Below are positions 1-50,883 of a stretch of 64,000 nucleotides of DNA, piece by piece. Positions within the stretch are counted from its first letter, which is position 1; each line of letters begins with the position of its first letter. The notes beneath the pieces are model-generated. The model had not been told where the DNA came from and ran no database searches. It saw nothing but the letters and a program-made list of their open reading frames with translations. Origin of the DNA: Bryoerythrophyllum caledonicum. Lineage: Eukaryota; Streptophyta; Bryopsida; Pottiales; Pottiaceae. Both the position numbers and the translations under genes were made by a program. The stretch is taken from the NCBI GenBank assembly GCA_963971425.1, contig OZ020519.1, positions 4,294,028 through 4,358,027 of the forward strand, in the 5' to 3' direction.

Positions 1-1379
1 TGGGCTCATGCTACCCGATTGATATCCGATACCCAATTGATATCCAATACCCGGTTGGTACCAGGTACCGACCGATTATCAACCGAGATATATATTTATT
101 ATTATTATTTTTTCTTTTTCCTTTCATACAAAATAAAATTCCTATTCTTTCAAATAAGAATTTAAGTTTTCGACAACAATTAACCTAGAAAGGAAACCTA
201 AACAATTAAACTAGAAAGAAAAACTAGTAACTAGTTGTAGTATAGAAATTCGATCTTTCATTGAACTCTTCAAATTCACTCCGTGCAATTCAATTCTAGG
301 AACTTCCATGGGGAATGGATCTTTTCGTTTAATGTATAAGTAGCTTAAGGTCACATGAAGGTTGTAATTGTATTTGTTATTGAATTAACCAAAGTATACT
401 TCTTTAAGGAATTAATTATTATTCCGGGAACACTCTTAGTCCAATCAAATTGATAGTAACTTTAGTATCCAGTAGATGTATCCATGATCAATTTGATAGT
501 CACAACATTGTAAATTCCTTTACCTTAGTCCATATTACGAATGGTATTATGCCATTTTGCGTAATTGAAATTAGGGTTTTGATACTTAACTCATGCAATT
601 CTCCCGTTCCTCTTTACTCCATCTTTACTTCTTGTAATTCGATCTTAATCCTCCCTTGAGATCACCTTATGTAGGTCAAATGCCTTGATCACAATTCATG
701 GATTCTCACACATCAATTTACCGTCCTCATCTTCTTTAATTACAAAGACTCAATTAATTCTAATTATAATTATAATATTCTCTTGGATGGAGGTTGCGCA
801 TACCTCCTATCCAGTAGATTATCTTTAATTGAATTAATGGTTTTGTATGTCCAATCATTCAGTAATTCATCTAGTGGATATGGTTGGCCAAACACATTAT
901 CCAATAGAACATAATTCAATCAAACATTCACATTTCCATATGACTTTGTATTTCTATATTATAATTTGAAGCATGTATCTTACTCTCAGACTTAGTAATC
1001 TACACTTAAATCAAATTGATAGAATAACTCAAGTCTTAGCTATTGTAGGATCATCATCTCTACAATTAACTGATTTAATTCCAATAGATAGCCACGGCTG
1101 TAGCTCCCAAATAACCCTGGACTTCTTGTGGACTTGCTTATAAAAAAAAAGCCCCAAAGTCCAAGAAGGTGGCTCTCTACCCCCTCCAAACCCTAATCCT
1201 CAACAATGGATGAGAGATGTCCGGACAGATGACATCCATAGCTTGATAGTTTCATCCAAATTCCAGACAATTTTCATCCAAAGTCAGTTCGGACAGTCTC
1301 ATCCACTGTACAGATTCATCCACAGTTCTATTTTTTACCCATAACTACTTTAGTAACTTCAAAAAATTACTACATGGAC
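1..1379. other. AT-rich spacer, no gene recognised
   Basis: No convincing coding sequence is visible. The first 100 bases repeat short variants of a 'gatatccaatacccg' type motif, and around 1200-1330 there are several copies of a GGATGAA/TTCATCC word that recurs near 2960, 4160-4250, 5210-5260 and 5710. The stretch is probably mobile-element debris downstream of the polyprotein relic on the minus strand, but no long terminal repeat could be delimited. Confidence 0.4.
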
Positions 1380-2401
1380 CTTACGATAAGCTCAAATCTT
1401 CGGTTAACAGTGAATGGCCTTAGCAAGGCCATCCGGTAATCACAAAGTCCACGTGACCTTACCGGCACAATTCATCTTCACTGATCAACGTTACATGACA
1501 TCGCAACTTGCCAATGCACCATCCAATTGCAGAAGGTGGTAATTGCTCCGATTACAATGCCAAAAGATGTTGAATGTGGTGGTGAGCGGCACGGTTGGCT
1601 GCAAAGCCAGTACCCACGTAAATGTATCGCTGTACCTGAAGCCCGGCCTCTAACACAATCGCAAGCCCCGTACCGATACCGGCAAATAGCTCCACGAGGG
1701 TAATATCTCATTTGGTGGTCACCACTCAATAGCGCAAGCCAACAACGGAGTGGAAGAGTTTAGTGAGAGATGTGGAGCATCTAGAGCGTCCACGATCTCC
1801 TGGCTTTGACGTATGAGCTCTAACTGGGTCCCTCAAGGAGCAAGTGGATCTTTGCAATAACACGTAGGAATCTCCACTGATAAGTGATCACATGATTCCG
1901 ATACCCCCGACATAAAAGCATTTATCTTCTCCAAAAGCGTGGAACCACATGGCAAATTGGATGCCAAGGCACTGCACCCAAATATAGCATCCGCCAAAAA
2001 GTCACCGTGCTAGCTGCAAAGACATCCGGAATGAGCTCTATTATGACATCACCGGCGGACCACCAAGGCCTAATCCAAGCCTCCTCTATCTAGTTATCTA
2101 CCCTAAAATCAAGTGAATAACGCGTCTGTTGACCAACCAAAATGTCGTAGTTGGTGGCACTAGTCACAACGCAGCGGAGAGATACATGGGAGAACAATGG
2201 ACTTGATCCCATGCTAAACATCAATTGCAACGGATGTCGGGTGTGGCCCATGGCCTTCCATGTGCTCCCTATCGATGTAATAGTTGTAAATGAGCAAGGC
2301 TCGAGGTCCGAAGCACCTAGACTCAAATCATGGGCTAGCTGCTTGTCGATCATCACTGGTTGAGCTTTGAAGTCCAAAATAACACGTAGGCGGTAGCTCA
2401 A
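1380..2401 (-). pseudogene. LTR-retroelement polyprotein relic: retropepsin then cytosine-5 methyltransferase domain
   Basis: Read on the minus strand, 2401-2090 encodes a retropepsin-like stretch that includes the motif YDILVGQQ. In this family that motif sits just after the protease core. After frame breaks, 1710-1380 encodes a domain resembling a DNA cytosine-5 methyltransferase. It has motif I LFAGIGTGL (about 1689-1663), then a segment ending in a YIYV-like strand, and a motif IV-like ITGWPC followed by G-H-S (about 1440-1410). The residue after the PC is a TAA stop (1420-1422) where a glutamine is expected. Two more in-frame stops lie at 1459-1461 and 1552-1554. The order protease then methyltransferase matches LTR retrotransposons I recall from non-seed plants that carry a methyltransferase in the polyprotein; that family match is from memory. 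The copy is clearly dead: stops, frameshifts, and no reverse transcriptase seen nearby. Confidence 0.72.
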
Positions 2402-2756
2402 GTGGAGTTGTTGTCCGTACGGCCAACCACCATAATCCCATCGTCATTCATCAAATGTACCATTCTTGGGCGCCCACTGCGTCACTTCTGTGTAGACTAG
2501 GCTACAACGTTAAATAAATAAGCCACTCCAAAGATCAAGGACTGATCTCTTGAGGACTGATCTATAGGTGTGGTCATGGCATCCGCCTTTAACACGAAAA
2601 TAGCCCCGACCGCTAACTTGGCCCGCATTGCCACCAAATCCTCCTCGCTAGATCATTGGAGTCGTCCTTGCTTGCGGATGGCATGGGCACCTTACGATGA
2701 GATGGACTAGAAGAAACAGGTAGGAGCGGAATCAAAGTGGGAGCTGCAGCAGGAAT
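2402..2756 (-). other. Probable upstream part of the polyprotein relic
   Basis: This lies upstream of the retropepsin relic on the minus strand, where gag would be expected. Short open stretches are present but I recognise no gag or zinc-knuckle motif. It ends at the TIR element starting at 2757. Confidence 0.3.
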
Positions 2757-4510
2757 GCTAGAATGTGAGCAGTGAACAATGAGCAGTGAGTAGTGAGCAA
2801 TCTATTTCTTTCACTTGGGCACCCTATAACCACAGATTTGGGGTGATTTACAAGAAACAATTTTACATTGTGACCTATTTCTGTGGTATGAAAAAAGTTC
2901 AAAATGGGAGAAAGTTGGATTAAAAAACCCGGAAATAAACTATTTGGAGGATATTTGGATGAATGTAGATAGATGGATGAATGTAGATGAATGATTGCTC
3001 AGCTTGTAGATAAAAAAATATAGCAACTTCTAAAATATTAGTATTAAAAATAAATAAAAAATAAAAAACCAGCCGAGGGGCTGCTAGGTACCGAAGAGTG
3101 CCCTGAGGGCAAAACCAAGGGAAACCCAAAAAAAAATACAAAAATACAAAAAAAAAAAATTAAAATTATCGCCCATTAAGAAAAATTCTTCTGAAGGGGT
3201 TATTCAAATTGCCCATTTGGTACTTCAAACTTCTCCGTATATTTGAATACAAAAGTTCTTGCTTCTACTTCAATTTTACATAATTTTACAATTCTTGCTT
3301 CCACTACAATTTGAGTGAGGGGAAAAAAGGCACCTTGGTACCAAAGGGCCCATTTGGCACTCCAAAATTTTATGTAATATTGAACACTAAAATTCTTGCT
3401 TCCATTATAACTTTACATAGTTTGAGTGAGGGGAAAAATGGCACCTCGGTACCGAAGTGCCCATTTGGCACTCCAAAATTTTATGTAATTTTGAACACTA
3501 AAATTCTTGCTTCCACTATAATCTTCATCGTAGTGGAGCATTAGGCCAACGCAAAGCATGGGTGAATTGCAAACACTTGTATTATGTATACAGATTTTTG
3601 TGCAAAGCAAACCTGGAAGACGACAAGTAAATACATGCACCAAGTCTTAGTTTCAATGATGTACAGCTCCTACTTCGCAATAGTAATCTCTAAGTTTTTA
3701 TTGTTTTGGTCATAGTAGTTATGGCAAGTTATTGCCTCTTTTATAGTTTATTTTTGAAACTACACAAAACTTTGGAGGGCCAAAATGGCTCCTTGGTACC
3801 GAGGAACCCTTCTGGGCTTCACAAAAAACTTATGAAGTTCAACGATTTTCACTTGTAGAAATAGTAGAATTTGTTGAGGAATTTTTTTTGAAACATATTT
3901 TACCCGTTGTTGGGAACGGGAAAAAAAATCAAAAAAATTAGAGAAAAAAATAAAATAAAAATGGGCCTAGTAGGCTCTTTGGCACAAAAGAACCTCTTTT
4001 GACTTCTTTAAAATCTTGTAGTTCAGTGATTCATCTTCACTCTTAAAAGGTATATGTTTTATGCAACATGAATTATGAAGCACTGTAAACTAACATAATT
4101 TTTGTTTCCCATTAAATTTCATGTCGCTCAAAGAGAAATTTTCATAAAACTAGATGAAATTATGAATGGATGCCCTAAACTTCATTCATCCATAAACTCT
4201 GTCCATCCATGAAATATATCATCCAAACTTATTCATCCATTTAATGATGATAAATAGTCAACTCCATATTAAAGTTTGGTTAGGTTTGTCCCTAGAATTC
4301 AACATTTATTTTCATGTGAAGCAATTTCATAGCCCATTTGTAAGTGAAAAATCATAGAAGACATTTGTAAACCACGGTAATAGGTTGCAAAATTTTACTT
4401 TTTAAAGAAATTTTCAAATATCATTTACAGAAAATTCCCATAATTAGAATATTCATGTCCGTTTCTATCCTCCCTCCTCACTGCTCACCGCTTACCGCTC
4501 ACATTCTAGC
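2757..4510. mobile_element. 1.75-kb element with about 38-bp terminal inverted repeats
   Basis: The left end starts GCTAGAATGTGAGC and continues with repeated GAGCAGTGAG words. The right end, read as its reverse complement from 4510, starts with the same 14 bases and matches for about 38 bp with roughly six mismatches. The sequence CTAG sits at both ends and could be a 4-bp target duplication or part of the repeat. The interior is AT-rich, carries a 111-bp tandem duplication and several degenerate TTGGTACCGA motifs, and has no recognisable transposase. This is a non-autonomous DNA-transposon-like element, apparently inserted next to or within the older polyprotein relic. Confidence 0.6.
3310..3531. 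repeat. 111-bp tandem duplication
   Basis: Two direct copies begin with TTTGAGTGAGGGGAAAA at 3310 and 3421, a period of 111 bp (37 codons). An open frame therefore runs through both copies without being a real gene. Partial related sequence also occurs just upstream (3250-3310) and, more diverged, at 3780-3830. Confidence 0.8.
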
Positions 4511-7045
4511 GTTGTTGTAGTGAGGGGGAGCGATAATACCGTCTTCGGGTACTTACCACAAACAAAAACCACCTCGGAATCACAATCTAGGTCAATAAAA
4601 AATGGGGCCACCGGAATACACTCACAACAAGCCCACAACACTAAGGAGGTATCACAAAAGATCCAAAAATGAAAACCGGATCCTCTCCCCCAACAACATA
4701 AAAGCGGAAAATGCAAATGACCAGAGCCACTAGCACATGCCTGCAATGGATGGTCGGTAGTCGCAAAACCTGCAACAACACAAGAGACACATCCAAAGGT
4801 GTCCTTTCCGAAGTCTATAACTAAGGAGGCAGCGAGAGCTAATGCGGTTGCGGTATTCACAAACACATGTCCCCCCAACAAAACCCACACGTTGGGTGAC
4901 AAACGCGTTGAACATCAATCCAATACCAAAATTGGATTAATGGTAAAATGTCCTAAATATAGGTGCAAATTTCACTCAAAACCGAGTTAAATTGCCCTTG
5001 TTACATACCTCCAAAGTTTAGACACTAATTTTTATTTTATTTTTAACAACTCACAAAAATGTGGTTTTGGAAAAACTTTTTCCACTAAATTTTTTCTTTC
5101 CACCTTGGTAGAAATCCTTATGGAGAGCTCAAATTCGACGTTAGAATTCAAAAAAAATGAATAGTTAAGAAGATATTAACTCACAATTTATGAATTCTGC
5201 CCAAATTACAATTTCATCCACAGTGGATGAAAATTTCCCCAGTGGATGAATTTGCAAATTAGATGAAAAATCGCAGATTAGGTCCAGTAGTTATTCTTCT
5301 TCCAATTCTTGCACCGCTCACATCATGCTCAAAAATTGTCAAATTTGGGCGCCATTTGTTGCATTGGCTTCATGTTAACGCGCTCTACAACGCCAATTGA
5401 TGCATCCAATTTTTTTCTAAACTGACCCAAACTCAAATTCTAGAACTAAAGAGAGGAACGTGGGAGGGTCATTGTCAAGTGAATAACTAGTAAATCATTA
5501 GGGTAGTCAAGCATCTCGCATTCTACAAAGGGAGAATCAACGAGTGCTAGTAGTTTTAAGAGAATGCCACACCTTTATCAATGATAAACAATCACTTTCA
5601 TGCAAAGGTAATCACTAAATACTCTCTAACTCACTTACAAAGCTTGACTCGACAAAGATGTCAAAGGACGTGTGCGGCGCTACACGCACACACAATCCTA
5701 AGTGGATGGAAATCATCCATGGATGAATGTGGTGCGCTGCCGTACGTCCCTAAATCCCATAGATTAGTAACAAACAAATCTACGCTAATACTAAGATGCG
5801 GAGAGGCCCTCGACCCCACGTCGCGTGGCAAGCTCGAAACCATGTTGTGGCAACTTCCCACACTCGCTTCTAGTTGCGGAAGGGGCCATGATTTGTTGCT
5901 GAAGAGGTACTTCTTTACAACGAGAAGGAAGCACAAACTACATCACAGGGAATGGAGAAGACTCAAGCGCAATCTAGGAGGACCGTGGAACACGTGAAGA
6001 GGTTGCACTAGCCATCGCACTCAGCCATGAAGCCATCAACGTCGTTGTGGAAATTCTTGGAAGGGCTGAAGCTGCCACAACAAGAGATTGTGAGAGAGCA
6101 CACCCACCTATCATAAGAGCGGTGGTGGGAATGCATGGCCGCTTCCTCGCACACCCCGACTTGTCGCACATCCCCGCCACGCCAGAGGATCCTCGATACT
6201 TGCACATACCCTCGCCGCTTCCATTCTTGGAAAATGTCTCCTACTCATCCCCAAAGATCTCCAAACCTACAAAGTAGTTGGCGCAGCTGAGGCCGACGCA
6301 ACTGTCATGCCAAGAGTTGGAGGTCTTATTTCCAACTTTCTGCGCCGAAGAAGCTCTAGGACGTCTTCCTTCTCACTAGTGACCTGCATGATGGCTCTGC
6401 AAATACAAATGGATTCCCTCCTTCGAGCTCTCAGCTGCACCGCCCTTCCGTCCCGGTGTTCCACGTAGTGCACCTAGAAGGTTCATGTTATACAGCTCTC
6501 TCCTCAATGTTTCCCTCCGTGCAGCGTGGCGAGAAAATTTTCAAGTCCCCTAGTGCCACATAATTGTGTGCCGAACAATTCCGCCTTGTCCTAGAAGTCC
6601 ACATCGCAGCACAGGCAGAAGAATGGGACCTCTACTTGCTTTCCGGGTGGCCCACCCCTCCTCTTCTCACGCCTTTAGAAGCAGTTCACGTCCACGAGCA
6701 TCCACTCATACTCGTTCATCATATACGCAACACGTAGGTGCTGTCCGCACTGCATGGAATGACTCTGACACACAATGACATCTTCTAATTCAAACTTGCC
6801 TTGCAAACGTAGCTGCATGGCGAATGGAAGAACAAACATAAAAAAAAAATATTGATTTGCATAAGGAAGGTAAAGAAAGAACACGAATTCCATCGATAAA
6901 CCTACAGCACTCGTCTATATACGGAGCTGATCCTCATTAGAGAGAGTTGACATCAAGTATGGTGGTCCTGTCGCACCGTATGGATAGTGCTTCCACATAC
7001 AATAATTTTTCTAGGTCCGGTGGAACCCGACACTCTACCTAGAAG
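4511..7045. other. Mobile-element debris, no gene recognised
   Basis: Open stretches of 60-138 codons occur on both strands (for example 4492-4902 minus and 5581-5997 plus). None shows a domain I recognise, and they have no consistent exon structure. GC content rises over 5640-6700 compared with the AT-rich flanks, which fits decayed coding sequence of a mobile element. GGATGAA-type words recur near 5210-5260 and 5700-5730. Confidence 0.4.
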
Positions 7046-9145: not shown

Positions 9146-9260
9146 CCACAAAGTTTCACAAGGTGTACCAGTAAGACTTCAAGGTTCGTGAACCTATCCC
9201 TCTGGACATGCAGAGGGATCATATCTTGTTCAAAACCGGTTATGAAGAAGGAGGATAAGA

Positions 9261-10631
9261 GAGTTTTCCTGAAAGTCTGAGTTTTAAAGGGTGGCAACCT
9301 TGTGTCAGCCAAAAAGTTCCGGTGCAGCATCTTTTAACCCCAAAAGGACCAAATCTCCTTCCGGGGATTTATGATTTTGGGCACGTTCCTAAAATTTGAA
9401 AAAAAATCTTTTTTCTCTGAAATTTGTATTCTAGATTGCCTCTGATAAGATCTTCGTGGAGATATTTTATTTTATTTTTTGTATTTGTGGTTTGAAAGTT
9501 AGTACCACTTAAAGCCAAAAGTGGGGACTCCGGGCACCTCCAAAATTTTTGACAAAAGTTTCTATTGACATTGCGATTTTTCACAAATATAAAGAATATT
9601 TCCTTCTTTGGAAATTTTCAAAAAAAAATCTTGTCTTTAGTGTAAAAAGGCATTTAATATCAAGTCAAACATTTTCACACATTGTAGGGCAACAGGGGAA
9701 AAAAAATTCATCTTTTCTACATAAAACCTAGAGATCATCATATTTTTCACTTTTTATTTTTTCAACAACAATATGTGGTGAAAACCTTCTTATTGACCGT
9801 TTGGATTATCATTTGAATACATACGTAGTTCACGAAAAAATAAAACGTGAAATGGCAATTTTTGAACCTCCACTCCTTGCACACTTGTTTTGAATATGCT
9901 ACACCCCTTTTATACCTCTAAAAATTGGTATGTTGGGAAATAACATCATGCTTAAGACAATGGTAAAATATTTAGACCTTGTACAATGCAAAAATTTGAT
10001 ACAAAGTGAAGTCAAAGTTTGTTGATCTACTCATTGCAGGGAAGAAAATGAACCATTGTTTTTACTTTAAACACTAAAATCTATCAATCCGTGCGGTGGA
10101 TTGCAACCAAAATTTCATGGCATGTTTATATAGAAGTCAATTTTAAGATCTTGTGGTTGGAAATCCAAAATTCACTTTAAAATGTGATTTTCATGTCTCT
10201 TTTTGGCAGTGGCAGTTTTGGACTGGTTTTAGAGCAAAAGTGGTTGTGGTCCTTTAGGGGTTAAGGACCTTGTGTCTTTCTCTATTCACCATAGCAGGGT
10301 GAGATTTTAATACGACAATATTTGCAGGGTGAAAATTCTCACCCTCCATATTTTATGGGCCACGCGCATGGAGCAAGCTAATGTAACCAAATTAGTAATT
10401 TGGAGTCACCAATGCCACCTTGCATCTATGTTTGGACGGTGACTGTGCCTAGATGATTAATCCTATAGCATGTTGGTTGGCTGACAAAGGACCATAATTT
10501 ATGGAATAAATCCCAAAGTTAACCAAACCACCATATTTCTCAAAAACAAGTGGACTTTCATGTGTACAACCTAATTCGGCATTTTGGGGTGATAGTCAGG
10601 GTTTAAACCTTGAGTACTTTAAGGAAAACTC
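9261..10631 (-). mobile_element. 1.37-kb non-autonomous TIR element, copy A, with TAAGA target duplication
   Basis: Both termini carry GAGTTTTCCT as an inverted repeat that extends imperfectly for about 25 bp. The 5-bp duplication TAAGA flanks the element at 9256-9260 and 10632-10636. The whole unit is the reverse complement of the element at 43075-44466, sharing blocks such as the one around CACCTTGCATCTATG and the one around CACACATTGT. There are no long open frames and no transposase, so it must depend on an autonomous relative. Orientation is assigned arbitrarily, with the 43-kb copy as plus. Confidence 0.75.
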
Positions 10632-10844
10632 TAAGAAGAACTTAGGTTCACTAAGGAGGTAGGAGTAAATAAAGTATCATATCGTTCCACTGGAAATAAG
10701 TCGATGTCTAAAGCTTCCTCACAATACCCTAAGTTCTTAAAAAGTCCCCTCACACCTTTCCCAAGTCAGGTTATTCTTGTCCATGTGGTCCCAATTATTG
10801 ACCCCTAAATTTCCAAGAATCCCCTCGAGGGACTATAGAAGGTT
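10632..10844. other. Short spacer between related repeats
   Basis: Follows copy A of the 1.4-kb TIR element and contains its right TAAGA duplication. No gene seen. Part of this sequence (around the CCATGTGGTCCCAATTA word) is similar to a block near 28360. Confidence 0.5.
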
Positions 10845-11745
10845 TGGGCAGGTTCATGTGGTGTCAATTTATAACATTCTTCTTTGAAATTTTTATTAAA
10901 GATGGACATTACCAAAAGCTTTATTTGAGTCCAGTTTTTTTCCTCAATTCAACATTTAATGAAAAAGTTATAGGGTTTTGAAGTTCAAATGGGGAGAGCG
11001 GGCACGACGGGCAACTCCAAAAACTTTTGTTAGGACACTCTATTGAATGTGATATATTCGGTACTAGCAAATAATAATATTTCCTTTCATATTGTCAAAA
11101 AAAATCTCCTATCTTTAGTGAAAAAAACCATATAAATCCAAGTCAAACATTTTCACACATTATCATACATTGTCGGGCAAGGTACCAAAAAACCTCATCT
11201 TTTTCACATCTCACTTAGAGATCTTCTTATTTTTCACTTCTAAATTTTTTCCATAGCATTATGTGGTGTGAACCTTTGCATTGACCATTCGGATTCTCAT
11301 TCTAAAACATATTAAGTTCACAAAAAAATACAACATGAATTGACATTATTTTGAACCTCCACTACTTGCACAATTTTTAAAAATATGCTACACCCCACCT
11401 CTACCTCTAAAAGTTGGTGTACAAGGGACTAGTATCATCCTTAACAGGTTGGAAATGAATTTAGACCTTGTGTAGTGAAAATATTTGACACCAAGTGAAG
11501 TCAAAGTCTGTTGATCCACAAAACCTAGGGAAGAAAATGAACCTTTTTTCTACTTCGAACACTATAATCTTTCAATCCGTGTGGTCAGAGTTTATGAAAT
11601 TTTGCGAGTATGTTATTTAGTAATTCTTTATTGAGATCCTATAGTTTAAATTAGAAATAGAAGTTTTGCGTTTCTTCATTACTCATTACTCATTACTTCC
11701 TTAAAATTAGTAGTTTTGAAGTGTTTTTGGTGCAAAATTGTCAAA
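10845..11745 (-). repeat. Partial copy of the 1.4-kb TIR family (fragment C)
   Basis: About 900 bp match the interior and one side of copy A in the same orientation, including the blocks around TTCACACATT and the region with GAAGAAAATGAACC. The outer third, including one terminus, is missing. It faces fragment D at 12690-13625 in opposite orientation, making a large imperfect inverted repeat with about 0.95 kb between the arms. Confidence 0.65.
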
Positions 11746-12689
11746 GAAATTTAGGGGTTAATATAAGACCATAAAGTAGGGGGGTCACATGCGGAATGAC
11801 CCTCTTCACTTTCAGGAAAATTCTTCTATGGTCATATTTTTGTAACTCGAATTTCATAGAGAGGGTGACTTGGCCTAGAAAAGGTGTAGGAAAACTACTA
11901 GTCAATTTTTTTGGAACCTAGGATACTGTAGGGGAGCTTTAGCTTGCATCAAATAGAGCTTAAGAACATTGATTGCCATAATTACTCATACATTTCATTT
12001 GTGCAATAAAGGGAGCATGAAATCCCAAATGCTTTCTTTATATCTATATTTATTCCTTTCTCTCTTATTCTTCTTCTTCCTTCAGAAGGGCTTTCAAGAA
12101 AACTCAATTATCAGTGCTACGTATACAATATGGATTGCAGGCAACCGCTTGTTTGCAATGGAACATTGTTTAACCATAAGTTCAATGAGAATAAAACTTA
12201 TATTCCTATATACCTCTTGTCTTCTAACATGTTTGTACAAAATTTCAAGTGTAAGTTGCAACCACGGAAATTGCAGAAACCCCCCCTTCGCGCTTTTGTC
12301 ATATAGGATTATAAAACATCATAGTTGTTGCCAGCCTAGCCGAAGCTGATCAACAAACAATCATTCCCTCACACACAACATGCACTGGGTGCCTTATTAA
12401 TGGATATTAATAAACACCATCACAACAGAAATATAGCTCAGACTTTTAACAGGAAGCTGTTAGTTGGGCACAAATAGAACAGCCCCTTCCCTTCCAGCCA
12501 TTTAACAGAAACCTCCACCCACGACCAAGCTGGAAAGACCACCCCCCAATATCCAAACACCCCTATGCCCATTCCCACAAGGTCATAAATGACCATGTGT
12601 TTAAACCTTGTCACTGTACAGTACATTTGTTCACAGGACAGAGATAAGCAAAAAGGGCCCTTGTCAACCCTAAACCCCAAAAGGCCCAA
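11746..12689. other. Spacer of the large inverted repeat, no gene recognised
   Basis: A 126-codon open frame at 11969-12349 has no recognisable domain and lies in AT-rich sequence between two repeat fragments. I see no supported gene. Confidence 0.4.
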
Positions 12690-13625
12690 GGCATTTTCAC
12701 ACCAAAAACACTTCAAAACTGCTTGTTCTAGTGCAATGAGTAATGAGGTAATCGAAACCTTTCATTTCTACATCTAACCGTATGATCTAAATTAAGACTT
12801 ATTCATTAACGTCTTCACAAAATTTCATAAACTTTGACCGCATGGATTGAAAGATTATGGTGTTTGAAGTAGAGAAAACCGTTCTTTTCCTTCCCTGCTT
12901 TGAGTGGATCACCAGACTTTGACTACACTTGGTGTCAAATTTTTGCACTACACAAGGTCTGAAAACACTACCATCATGTTAATCATGATGTTATTTTCTA
13001 GTACACCAATTTTTAGAAGTAGAGAAGGGGTGTAGCATAATCAAAACAAATGTGCAAGGAGTAGAGGTTCAAAATTTGCCAATACACGTTTAATTTTTTT
13101 GTGAACTAAATATGATTTAGAATGATAATCCGAATGGTCAATAAGAAGGTTTAGGCCACATCTTGTAGTAGAAAAAATAACATGTAAGAAATATGAAGTT
13201 CTCTAAGTTTTATGTGAAAATGAAGAAGTTTTTTGGTACCTTGCCCGACAAAGTGTGACAATGTGTGAAAATGTTTGACCTTGATTATTATGCTATTTTC
13301 CACTTAAGACCAGAGTATTTTTTTGAAAATATGAAAGGAAATCATATTATTTGCCAGTATTGAAAATCTCACATTCAATAGATTATCCCTCCAAAGTTAT
13401 TGGAGTTGCCCGATGTGCCTAGTCTTTCCATTTGAAATTCAAAACCCTATAATTTTTTTCATTAAATGTCGGATTTAGGAAAAAAATTGGACTCACACAA
13501 AGATTTTAGCAACGTCCATCTATAGTAGAAATTTCAAAAAGGAATGTTATAAATTGACACCATAGGAATCTACTCAAACCTTCAAGAGTCCCCAGAGGGA
13601 ACTCTTGAACCTTTAGGGGTTAAAA
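12690..13625 (+). repeat. Partial copy of the 1.4-kb TIR family (fragment D)
   Basis: This fragment matches 43468-44400 of copy B in the same orientation, for example around CACCAAAAACACTTCAAAA and the CCTTCCCTGC block. Like fragment C it lacks one outer part of the element. C and D are inverted relative to each other. Confidence 0.65.
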
Positions 13626-14422
13626 ATAAGTTGGAAACCGTATAGATAGGCTTGTATTTTACTTTGTAGAATACAAAAATGTATCCACATTTAGCAAGAC
13701 TTACACCTTTGGATTGAAGATTCTTCATCTAACAACCTTCATTTGGAGATCATATGAATCAATCTCAACCTTATCATGTTGAAATACAACACCATACATG
13801 TAGAATACTCTGACCACCAGTAGTCCTTTATGACATTTAAGGATTAACCAACCAAAATGATGAAGAACAACGGCCTCTAGGGGAACTAGCAAAATAAAGT
13901 GTATGCTCCTTCCACTCCTGCAGCAATGCCCACATGACAAAGGATTAGAACCAACCAAAATTCACAACCGACAACTATATACTTGGGGTTTATCCAACCC
14001 TCTTCCATCCCATTACCACCTATCACCCAAATAGAGGTCCACTATCAATCAAGACCCCTTACATTGGATTGACGCTTATGGGGGTTACATGTAAACACCA
14101 ACCGACTAAACATGGCAGCACACTTTGAAAATTCATAATTAATTCATTAAAAAAATAAAATGAAATCGCTTGAGTTGAAATCGTAATTCTATTTGGTCAC
14201 CACTGAAAAATAAATTGGTAGAATTCTTTCCTCTCTCCAGATATTCACATTGCGTAAGTTCTCCGTTATTGGGGGGTTTACCTTACGTGACCGCAAATCA
14301 GGTCCCCTCACCTCACCACGGCACGTCACCTCAAACCAGGGTACGTCACTTCAAACCCCCCCAAATCCACGTCCCAAACGTAGGCCCGGAATACGGCCCG
14401 GTATGCGGGGAAGTATATAGGA
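13626..14422. other. Spacer and probable upstream region of the WDR44-like gene
   Basis: AT-rich to about 14210 and then GC-richer towards the WDR44-like gene. A 121-codon plus-strand frame at 14215-14580 overlaps the probable 5' leader and shows no recognisable domain. No clear TATA box was found. Confidence 0.4.
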
Positions 14423-42718: not shown

Positions 42719-43074
42719 TAAGCAGACGAGGAACCGGAAAGGACGCGATCCATTGTTAGCTCATTGGCCGCGTGGCAGAGGGGAGTGGACATCATCAATA
42801 GAGAATTCTAGCGTCTACACAACAAAATTGAAGAATTTGGTGTTTGACGGGCTGCTCGTTACTAGCCCGGTGGACCGGGATGTCGCCTTGTTGCCTACGG
42901 TGCAAAGAATTCTCGCCTCTGACATGCTACGCCGACAAATTTGTCCGGGCCCCGTGCCCCGCTGGAGATGCTCTAAAGTTGTAGAATTCAAAGTGCTTGA
43001 GTCTATCGTTGATAATGTCACACCCTGTGTTTCACTAAAAACTGTGATATAAACAAGGTGTGACATATATGATA
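42719..43074. other. Short spacer between two TIR elements
   Basis: Open frames on both strands (about 100 codons) show no domain and overlap each other. No gene is supported. Confidence 0.45.
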
Positions 43075-44466
43075 GAGTTTTCCTGAAAGTACTCAGGGTT
43101 TGAACCCTGACTGTCACCCCCAAACGTTGATAGGGGTTGTACACTTGAAAGTCCACTTGTTTTTTAGGAACATGGTGGTTTGGTTAACTTTGGGGTTTAT
43201 TTCATAAATTATGGTCCTTTGTCATCCAACCAACATGCTACAGGGTTAATCACCTGGCACAGTCACCGTCCAAACATAGATGCAAGGTGGCATTGGTGAC
43301 TCCAAATTACTAATTTGGTTACATTAGCTTGTTCCATACGCGTGGCCCATAAAATATGGAGGGTTTGAATTTTCACCCTGCAAATATTGTCGTATTTAAA
43401 TCTCACCCTGCTTTGGTGAATAGAGAAAGACACAAGGTCCTTAACCTCTAAGGTACCGTGACAGTTTTACACCAAAAACACTTCAAAATTAATGGATTCT
43501 AGTGCAATGAATAAAGAAGGTAACAAAAACTTTGATTTTTAGTTCTGGCCGTAGGATCTCAATAAAGGCTTATTAAATAATACATGTACAAAATTTCATA
43601 AATTTTGACCGCACGGATTGAAAGATTATAGTGTTTGAAGTCAAGCAAATGGTTCATTTTCTTCCCTGCGTTTAGTGGATCAGCAGACTTTGACTTCAGT
43701 TGGTGTCAAATTTTTTCACTACACAAGGTCTAAATCTATTACCATCTTGTTAAGCATGATGTTAGCTCCTTACACACCAATTTTTAGAGGTAGAGACGGG
43801 GTGTAGCATATTCAAAACAAGTGTGCAAGGAGTGGAGGCTCGAAATTTGTTAATTCACACTTAAATTTTTTTTGAACTTAATATGTTTTTGATTGATAAT
43901 CCGAATGGTTAATAAGGAGGTTTACATTACATATTGTTCTGGATAAAATAAAAAGTGAAAAATATAATGATACCTAGGTTTTATGTGGAAAAGAAGAAGT
44001 TTATTTGGTACCTTGCCCGACAATGAGTGACAATGTGTGAAAATGTTTGACTTGGGTTGGTATGCTATTTTTCACTAAAGACAAGAATTTTTTTTGACAA
44101 TATGAAGGGAAATAATATTACTTGCGAGTACTGAAAATCTCACTTTCAATAGAGTGTCCTATCAAAAGTTTTTGGAGTTGCCCGAGGTGCCCGCCCTCCC
44201 CATTTAAAATTCAAAACCCTATAACTTTCTCATCGAATGTCCAATTTAGGAAAAAATTGTTTTCCCACTAAGGTCTTGGTAATGTCTTTTTCTATAGTAA
44301 AATTTCAAAGAAGAATGTTGGAAATTGACACCATAGGAACCTCACCGAACTTTCAAAAAACCCATTTTTGACACTTGGTACCTTAGGGCTTAAAGGATGT
44401 TGCACCGGGTCTTTTTGTCTGACACAAGGTAGCCACCCTTTAAAACTCAGACTTTCAGGAAAACTC
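43075..44466 (+). mobile_element. 1.39-kb non-autonomous TIR element, copy B
   Basis: Reverse complement of copy A at 9261-10631 over its full length, with the same GAGTTTTCCTGAAAGT terminal inverted repeat at 43075 and, inverted, at the 44466 end. The left and right flanking five bases (TGATA and TAATG) do not match, so either the duplication has decayed or this copy has moved without leaving one. No transposase is encoded. Confidence 0.72.
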
Positions 44467-45873
44467 TAATGTGTAGTGGGAAAATATAACACATCTTGAG
44501 TCAGAGTACGCTGACCCTGTCCGCTTGGGGAAGAAAAAACACCATGCACACCTTGATGGCACACTGGTCACACTTGTCAGTATCGAGGCCTTTCAATCAT
44601 TCGACTCTCGCTATTACAGGACGACCGCTTGTCGTCATTCTCACGAGCGCTGTGAATCAGAACCAGACCTTGCTGCAGTCCGGTTCGTGGGTGCTGTAGT
44701 TGCCCGCTTTTCAATCTCGTTGTGAATCTCCTCGACCGCAACTTCGAGGTGAAATTAACTCGGGTGCTTTCTGGACCTCGAAACCGGCGATAGCCAGAGT
44801 AGAAGCCTGATTTTAAGGGGATTCTCATGGCACGCCGCGCATGGGGTCCAGAAGCCATAAATAAAGAAGCCCCATTTATAGACCGCCAGCTCCCAAATAT
44901 CCGATCCAAGCCCTCCGTGTTCGACCCAAAAGAGCTTCTTATCCTGCCGAATTCCCAGCAATAATGAATAATACGGTGGTAAAAAAACAGCGTTTGCATG
45001 GCTCCAGATGGAGCACTATTAAGTTTACAAGTGGCGTTAATCTACTTTACCTCTGGAGTACGAGCTCTTAATTAGGCAGAACTACAGTACAATATTCAGA
45101 GATATTCTGGTCCAATTATCTGAATCATACTCCGTTTTCATGTACCTCGTCCGAAGAGTGTCTTCTTCTCTGGATGCTCCCCCACTTCAACACTCACTGC
45201 GCCGGATGGCACAGTTCAATACCTGGTTTACATGTCTGACGCACAACCCACTTGCACCATAAATGCTTTTCCAGAGGATTAGAAAGGCAATGACTTGTCA
45301 ACACCGGGAATCGAAAGTAACATTAAATTAAATTTAAACGAACGATAGCCATATGTTTTGGATCGCCGTAGCTATTTAGAGGCCAAAAGTGAAGAAGATT
45401 AGGTACTCCATTGATAGCGTGACTACTCTGCAATGAGAAGTCGACATGAAAGACATCCATCTGCACTTGAGCAAACAGCATGTCCTTGTTAGAGATTGAA
45501 TTTGGAATCCCAGATACGTCAAGGGAATCAATCACATTGCATCGAAGGTACGTAACAAAGGATGACACTGGGAAATCAAAGGAAGGACCTCCAATGAAAG
45601 CTTCTCCAAGACAAAACTCAGCCTTCCATGAACCAATTCAATATACATTGAAAGAATCGATGACCTTGACTTAAAAAACTAAATGGCGAAAGTACAAAAT
45701 TGAGAATCATGGACACAGAATTACTGCATCATGATCTAACAAGTTTAATCCTCCAAACTCATTTCCGTATAACCTGATGGTTTCCCGCCCTCAAGGCATT
45801 TCGTAACTGCATCAAATCGACATACTGGATCCAAGTATCTAGATTACAGCTCTGACATATACCTCGGAAAAGC
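44467..45873. other. Spacer, no gene recognised
   Basis: A 140-codon minus-strand frame at 44577-44999 is rich in Ser and Arg with no recognised domain, and a plus-strand frame overlaps it. The right part should hold the 3' end of the minus-strand gene at 45874-47532. Confidence 0.4.
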
Positions 45874-49839: not shown

Positions 49840-50883
49840 AAGGTATTCAAAGGTGATCACCTGATCATCCCTCTCTTCATACACCACAAGAAGATGATCT
49901 TTCCCAAGAGCATAGCACACCGCCGACAATTCGCGAGTACTGAATTGTACATAAGCTCGATCAACACAAGGAATATGGTTGTCGTCACAAGGATGGTTGT
50001 CGTCATCAAGCTCTAGCAGCTGACGCCCTACAGAGTCATATGCACACGAACCGAGGCGATCGTCCACTTCAAAGCTATCGTGCCCGCTAAACTGATGGCC
50101 AAAAACCAGATTCTCATATAATCCACCATTCCACGCTCCACTCTCTGAGCTGAAAACCTTTGCAACCACATGACCAGTCGAATTTTCATCGACAGCTAAC
50201 ACATTGTAGCATCTTCTGCCCTGGTTCATCACCAGTTGCACCATTTGAAGTTCAAGACCTCGCAGGGCCTGATGTGGAAGCACTCTGCTCCGCCCTGTCA
50301 ATGGATTCAACACTGATGATCATTAGCGTCTTGTTCGTATGCATTTCTGCGGAAACGACGCTCCGCCCTGTCAATGGATTCAACACTGATGATCATTAGC
50401 GTCTTGTTTGTATGCATTTCTGCGGAAACGACGCACACCAGCCCTCAATCGCCTGTGTACAACGTACGGATACAATAGAAACGACTCCCTAACTTGTATA
50501 GACCTAAGTTGCCATCTGTTTGCCTTATTATCGTACAACTTCACTAACACACAAAGAGACCCATCGGCATACCCTTCCGACAGCATTGCAAACATTTGAG
50601 GGCTAGCTTCTGCATATGCCCGCTTGAACTCCGAGTCTCTTGAAGTCAGATTCCACTTCCATTTCTTGGACAAGCATTGGAGACGGATCATTTCTGGTGA
50701 AAGCAGACGCGCAAAGACCTATTGCAGAAGCTCGTCGGGTAAAGTGCTCCATAAGGTGGCGGCCATCGGAGCACAATGAGAAGCTCCTCCAGCTTTGATA
50801 GCAGCAAGCTCATCCTCAAGAGACTGAACCTTTTGCGTAAAATGAAGATAGATTTCCTGTAAATCAGGGGTCCCTTGAACCAT
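49840..50883 (-). pseudogene. F-box protein relic
   Basis: On the minus strand an ATG at 50883 opens a frame with an N-terminal coiled-coil-like stretch (KVQSLEDELAAIK) and an F-box start LWSTLPDELLQ, then a TAG stop at 50719-50721. The rest of the F-box follows in frame (VFARLLSPEMIRLQCLSKKW). A kelch/F-box-associated region continues with LNPLTGRSRVLP and later beta-strand-like segments to about 49840. A 73-bp tandem duplication at 50287-50432 breaks the frame further. F-box proteins are substrate receptors of SCF ubiquitin ligases, but this copy cannot make one without suppression of the stop. Confidence 0.72.
50287..50432. repeat. 73-bp tandem duplication inside the F-box relic
   Basis: The unit starting GCTCCGCCCTGTCAATGG occurs at 50287 and again at 50360 with one or two differences. 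Seventy-three is not a multiple of three, so it shifts the reading frame. The copies are almost identical, so the duplication is recent. Confidence 0.9.

Follow-up and report, generated by a model that had tools for sequence, protein, structure and literature searches.

Retrotransposons that bear a DNA methyltransferase were described in Symbiodinium and Klebsormidium by de Mendoza et al. 2018, whose main text also reports recurrent independent captures of such enzymes (PMC5890265). According to that text, KnitGypsy-Dnmt3 of Klebsormidium nitens is a Gypsy-type element with a Dnmt3-class domain inside its polyprotein, the repeat order of DIRS elements, a retroviral-type integrase and a methyltransferase under purifying selection, and SymbioDIRS-Dnmt3 of Symbiodinium combines a Dnmt3-class enzyme with A-coding-B-A-B repeats and a tyrosine recombinase. 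Here we describe a stretch of 64,000 nt from the land plant Bryoerythrophyllum caledonicum (assembly GCA_963971425.1, contig OZ020519.1, positions 4,294,028-4,358,027 of the forward strand; hereafter the window). Sequence comparison confirmed that it contains an old, dead retrotransposon, of the Ty3/Gypsy type by its enzymes, with a DNMT3-type cytosine-5 (C5) methyltransferase. The reading frames, the gag core and the 3' half of this copy are lost, and none of these proteins is made from it now. The copy itself is ordinary debris, and the interest lies in the family behind it, a variant of a rare, already described kind in which some structural features look new. The original prediction for this site, made from the sequence alone, rightly called methyltransferase-bearing retroelements rare, though the kind had been described in 2018.

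All three peptides quoted in that prediction were found on the minus strand, namely YDILVGQQ at ~2149-2126, LFAGIGTGL at ~1689-1663 and ITGWPC at ~1440-1423 (positions counted by hand), with a stop codon immediately behind the PC of ITGWPC. Taken alone, the pieces of the window are short and worn: six of them matched no Pfam family at E up to 1 and gave no useful match in NCBIfam. Against the PDB, the protease piece had a chance match only (estrogen receptor, E 0.95), and the motif-I piece found DNMT3A first (E 0.029). A well-preserved relative from the same genome (L010) was used as the reference for mapping the relic in pieces by blastn and tblastn. The second half of its first open reading frame (ORF1) matched the window at 2481-1411 by tblastn with an E value of 4.5e-134, in four pieces (197, 152, 140 and 42.7 bits); the highest score among 20 dinucleotide-shuffled versions of the window was 26.2 bits. 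This rules out a chance match of motifs and places a retropepsin and a C5 methyltransferase in one relic, as had been proposed. The relic is 81.6% identical to L010 at the DNA level over 1077 columns, with three single-base deletions and seven in-register stops, one of them directly after the catalytic cysteine, so that the description of a fossil copy with its catalytic motif cut by a stop was correct. The interval first assigned to it, 1380 to 2401, marked the methyltransferase and protease site and was too narrow, since the relic extends from 5830 to 1410 on the minus strand when L010 is mapped back onto the window (Table 1). When the window was searched with pieces of L010 (blastn and tblastn), no reverse transcriptase (RT), integrase or methyltransferase sequence beyond motif IV was recovered, and Rfam at gathering scores gave nothing there.

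Changes of the C-to-T type relative to L010 were found at 21.3% of CG, 23.4% of CHG and 12.6% of CHH sites, and other changes at 5.4%, 9.5% and 5.1% of the same sites. This pattern suggests a copy long methylated by plant-type enzymes, with the reservation that L010 is not its ancestor. Bacterial contamination of the window was ruled out because copies sit on many large contigs. Matches to a TAXi aspartic protease and to MatE, together with a DRM-like exon, mark the DNA as that of a plant. An insertion occupies the place in the relic where 1.8 kb of gag is expected, and it has no match to the gag of L010; it is AT-rich, measures 1.76 kb and contains a 111-bp tandem repeat at 3310-3521.

When the genome was searched with window positions 1300-2760, 40 of 1107 candidates were scored, and 39 of these were matches other than the window itself, 78-81% identical and most of them over the same 1240 bp. 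Loci of 10 kb were fetched at 20 of the 40 places, hand-picked across the identity range (the window's own copy being L025). A 1353-aa frame holding protease and methyltransferase together is open in 6 of these 20 loci, which joins the two domains in one frame in genomic copies, and a 1047-aa frame behind it is open in four loci; both are open in three. Better-preserved relatives with RT and terminal repeats, of the sort for which the original prediction had suggested a search, do exist elsewhere in the genome. In L010, ORF1 has Pfam matches to a zinc knuckle (E 6.4e-4), an aspartyl protease (Asp_protease_2, E 5.5e-4) and, over the curated cut-off, a C5 methyltransferase (E 1.2e-11), and ORF2 has matches to RT (4.3e-31), RNase H (7e-39), Integrase_H2C2 (4e-18), rve (1.3e-14) and a PHD finger (7.9e-11). 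The RT-RNase H part and the integrase both match Ty3 best (E 8.3e-78 and 2.5e-21), and the order protease - RT - RNase H - integrase is that of Ty3/Gypsy. To our knowledge, Ty3 and other Gypsy elements have no methyltransferase and carry ordinary long terminal repeats (LTRs). The integrase is of the DDE (rve) type with an H2C2 zinc finger, and no phage-type integrase that would indicate a tyrosine recombinase was detected by Pfam in ORF2 of L010 at E up to 0.01. The cysteines and histidine of the PHD finger are complete in 12 of the 13 readable loci (one has an internal stop), and seven loci end before it. In the relatives, a single frame accordingly encodes zinc knuckle, protease and methyltransferase; the conserved UAG-CAA-UCA follows it, and behind that come RT, RNase H, integrase and PHD finger.

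The designation as an LTR-type polyprotein held for the retroelement nature and needs refining for the repeats. In all three copies with the 3' side read (L010, L011 and L016), a repeat A1 (~361 bp) lies on the left and B1 (~106 bp), A2 and B2 lie on the right. These are split direct repeats in the order A-coding-B-A-B, with no ordinary pair of identical LTRs, and the element is therefore Gypsy by its enzymes and not by its repeat structure. Some copies are apparently young, because A1 and A2 are 99.2-99.7% identical in these three. The element ends are TGTC...GACA, and the inner B1-A2 junction, GACA-GC-TGTC, looks as if two element ends had been joined with two extra bases. With B1-A2-B2 as the query, 42 matches were obtained in the genome (2276 candidates, 40 scored). 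All have this arrangement; 41 cover it from its first base, and one begins at its third. An old copy, L023, has A and B at its 3' side and no B1 at E 1e-5. At one place in this search (G000:C202:1985-3020), two overlapping B-A-B matches stand in tandem, an arrangement that a concatemer, a circular template or recombination between copies might have produced.

The identity of the C5 methyltransferase, on which the original prediction had been made to depend beforehand, is borne out by Pfam DNA_methylase matches in 7 of 7 full-length members of alignment A1. This and the alignments A2 and A3 (names unrelated to the repeats) hold 7, 7 and 13 sequences, with copies picked as stop-free. The best sequence matches in the PDB are DNMT3 proteins, and among solved structures the fold is also closest to DNMT3, which refines the enzyme to the DNMT3 type. 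What we take to be motifs I-IV-VI-VIII-X stand unrearranged in L010, with PC and ENV, in the same order as in DNMT3A/3B/3C; unlike those proteins, ORF1 of L010 has no PWWP or ADD domain at E up to 0.01, and its motif IV reads PCQGHS. Catalytic residues are kept at motif IV in 20 of 20 loci and at motif VI in 18 of 19. The ratio of nonsynonymous to synonymous substitution (dN/dS) is 0.076 for the methyltransferase and points clearly to purifying selection on it; protease and RT have 0.042, while linker, gag part and tail lie at 0.18-0.22. Another dN/dS run, on the 10 of 20 loci that are gapless end to end (three of them with one or two stops, which were skipped), likewise has the methyltransferase less tightly held than protease and RT. 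A first structure model, from alignment A1, was set aside for its poor predicted local distance difference test (pLDDT) score of 39.9. A second model was built from alignment A3, which also took in the Dcm-like sequences L032 and L041, and these may make it lean towards the common methyltransferase fold.

As to the source of the enzyme, capture of a DRM gene was rejected, since DRM has motif X before motif I and the order in L010 is I to X; BLASTP to a DRM-like exon of the host (L035) gave 27% identity over 130 aa. This exon has a GNS motif ahead of motif I, from which its DRM label is derived. DRM chains are absent from the 50 VIA-align rows shown, which excludes nothing. Recent capture of the genome's Dcm-like gene was likewise rejected, with a similarity of only 36% over 55 aa. 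That gene (L032, 94-1203, minus strand) encodes a C5 methyltransferase of 370 aa in a single frame (Pfam 2.4e-64) and lies on a 22-Mb contig. It resembles bacterial or viral types and was possibly transferred. Viral contigs yielded no relative at E 1e-3 with single window pieces, and with alignment A2 they yielded a single match, 39 aa long, within a frame for a C5 methyltransferase on an IMG/VR contig (L041).

Across the genome, Pfam DNA_methylase (PF00145) gave 123 scored matches, all over the cut-off, of 1054 candidates. Sorted by eye from the match range, with few loci read, these appear to comprise 22 of the family described so far (family 1), one Dcm-like single-frame gene, one DRM-like exon, one unclear case and, by subtraction, 98 of a second family. 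The loci read agree with the sorting (L033, L034 and L038 in family 2, L036 and L037 in family 1), and one further PF00145 place, L039, has no frame of at least 150 aa and is assigned to neither family. The methyltransferases of the two families are 56% identical over 333 aa.

In family 1, ORF1 and ORF2 abut in phase with a TAG alone between them. The junction reads TAG CAA TCA in all 16 loci that align fully there; the alignment of L024 begins inside the TAG, and three loci are unaligned there. The one family-2 locus read at this point has TAG CAA CCA at the same place and in phase, with a zinc knuckle and a weak protease match ahead of it and RT and RNase H behind. Both sequences fit CAR YYA with an open frame behind, a context described in the text of PMC2754532 as essential for readthrough in tobacco mosaic virus RNA, and we infer that the UAG is read through. 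The same TAG CAA TCA occurs in a gapless 4053-nt relative, 90.4% identical, on contig CADCWO010000201.1 of the Synechococcales metagenome-assembled genome AVDCRST_MAG81 (L040). This is probably misbinned plant DNA, a eukaryotic contamination of the prokaryote reference set.

The family can be set beside the Klebsormidium element by its published description. Both are Gypsy-type with a Dnmt3-class domain inside the polyprotein, a DIRS-like repeat order, a retroviral-type integrase and a methyltransferase under purifying selection, and kinship with KnitGypsy-Dnmt3 is likely because the odd repeat order is common to both. Here, two families occur in another plant genome, the UAG-CAR-YYA is conserved, the methyltransferase lies on the Gag side with RT behind the stop, and ORF2 of family 1 closes with a PHD finger. 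The main text of PMC5890265 contains neither 'PHD' nor 'readthrough', and its sole mention of a stop codon concerns premature stops; the comparison is with that main text, figure 4c and the supplements apart, and the Klebsormidium element may share the UAG context and the PHD finger. SymbioDIRS-Dnmt3 resembles the present family in enzyme class and A-coding-B-A-B repeats and differs in having, by the same text, a tyrosine recombinase in place of the rve integrase. Neither 'methyltransferase' nor 'PHD' occurs in the main text of a survey of plant LTR elements (PMC6317226). Among the matches listed for the open-access literature, assessed from their titles and the opening of their abstracts, none reports such elements in land plants, or a readthrough stop or PHD finger in them.

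As an explanation of the whole, we lean with modest confidence towards a particle-packed methyltransferase that marks new copies. Ribosomes would mostly stop at the UAG, and the methyltransferase would for this reason be made in Gag-like amounts, with a minority reading through and adding RT and integrase. Packed with the RNA, the enzyme would act on new complementary DNA (cDNA) before it integrates or as it does so, methylating mainly CG sites. Each new copy would thereby arrive in the genome with the marks of silent or self DNA, and the PHD finger would help to choose the chromatin target. Several points weigh against this account. By the main text of PMC5890265, the KnitGypsy enzyme is among those without de novo methylation in yeast, where two SymbioDIRS-Dnmt3 enzymes were active. 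The methyltransferase is less tightly held than protease and RT, and its model is weak in two stretches, residues 107-120 (which follow the catalytic cysteine) and residues 213-270. The host, as its DRM-like exon indicates, also makes methylation enzymes, and any methylation of the element could be their work. The protease and zinc-knuckle matches of L010 fall just under the Pfam cut-off, the 4-bp target duplication is exact in two of three copies and agrees at three of four bases in the third, and readthrough is argued from context and conservation.

The first two of these points would also suit an element in which the DNMT3-like domain does not act as a DNA methyltransferase in the cycle and serves instead as a nucleic-acid-binding or structural part on the Gag side, or in RNA methylation. 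The catalytic residues kept at motifs IV and VI and the low dN/dS argue otherwise, and we consider this reading doubtful, though with a real chance of being right. Retroelements use many recoding routes, and the UAG might simply end ORF1, with RT-integrase translated from a separate RNA or after re-initiation; such a route is quite improbable given that the frames abut in phase with the TAG alone between them and that the CAR YYA pattern is matched by the next six bases of family 1, of L040 and of the family-2 locus read. A separate capture in this plant lineage, convergent with that in Klebsormidium and without a shared Gypsy-Dnmt3 ancestor, would accord with the recurrent captures mentioned at the outset. 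It appears unlikely in view of the enzyme class, the superfamily by enzymes and the unusual repeats, all shared with KnitGypsy-Dnmt3 as its main text presents it. That the host took over the window copy as a methyltransferase gene is scarcely conceivable, as nothing found speaks for it and the copy has in-register stops, three frame breaks and a truncation behind motif IV. Only tentatively, and with a rather low probability for all parts at once, do we propose the full combination: a land-plant lineage with readthrough-built particles holding the DNMT3-type methyltransferase at Gag stoichiometry and RT/integrase as a minority, its cDNA methylated in the particle before PHD-guided integration, and descended from the same capture as KnitGypsy-Dnmt3, which would make the lineage older than land plants.

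If the particle-packed methyltransferase does mark new copies, a parasite would write its own epigenetic mark on each of them. Plants silence transposons by DNA methylation, and an element-borne methyltransferase under clear purifying selection raises the question of a parasite's reason for methylating itself or its host, which is left open in the discussion of PMC5890265. Since the methyltransferase lies ahead of a leaky-type stop and RT after it, the layout predicts that the methyltransferase is a particle protein, and the two families are suited to asking whether the capture predates land plants.

Table 1. Parts of the retrotransposon relic in the window, in the order of the element.
Feature	Position	Strand	Evidence
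Left terminal repeat (A1) relic	5466..5830	-	blastn, 79.5% identity to L010 A1 with its edge
Leader, part	4579..5066	-	73.8% to L010 leader
ORF1 frame start (gag N-terminus), 58 nt	4520..4577	-	89.7% to L010; tblastn 20 aa, E 1.5e-5
Insertion with inverted ends, not retroelement; gag core missing there	2754..4513		44-nt arms, 82% complementary
Gag-part end of ORF1	2500..2647	-	82.4% to L010, gapless
Retropepsin-like protease part, broken	2000..2483	-	tblastn 75% identity, residues 33-162 of P0001
Protease-methyltransferase linker	1707..1994	-	tblastn 70% identity
DNMT3-type methyltransferase, N-terminal third (motifs I, IV), stop after catalytic Cys, truncated	1410..1704	-	tblastn 78.6% over 98 aa; motif table (L025)

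Elsewhere in the window, several copies of a repeat lie at 9260-13725 and 43073-44467 in both orientations, matching over 0.5-1.4 kb at 76-81% identity. A frame at 61349-62050 matches DUF7869 (E 1.2e-19) beside other minus-strand frames and is possibly a mobile-element remnant, and a direct tandem duplication of ~74 bp, 98.7% identical, is found at 50287-50434.
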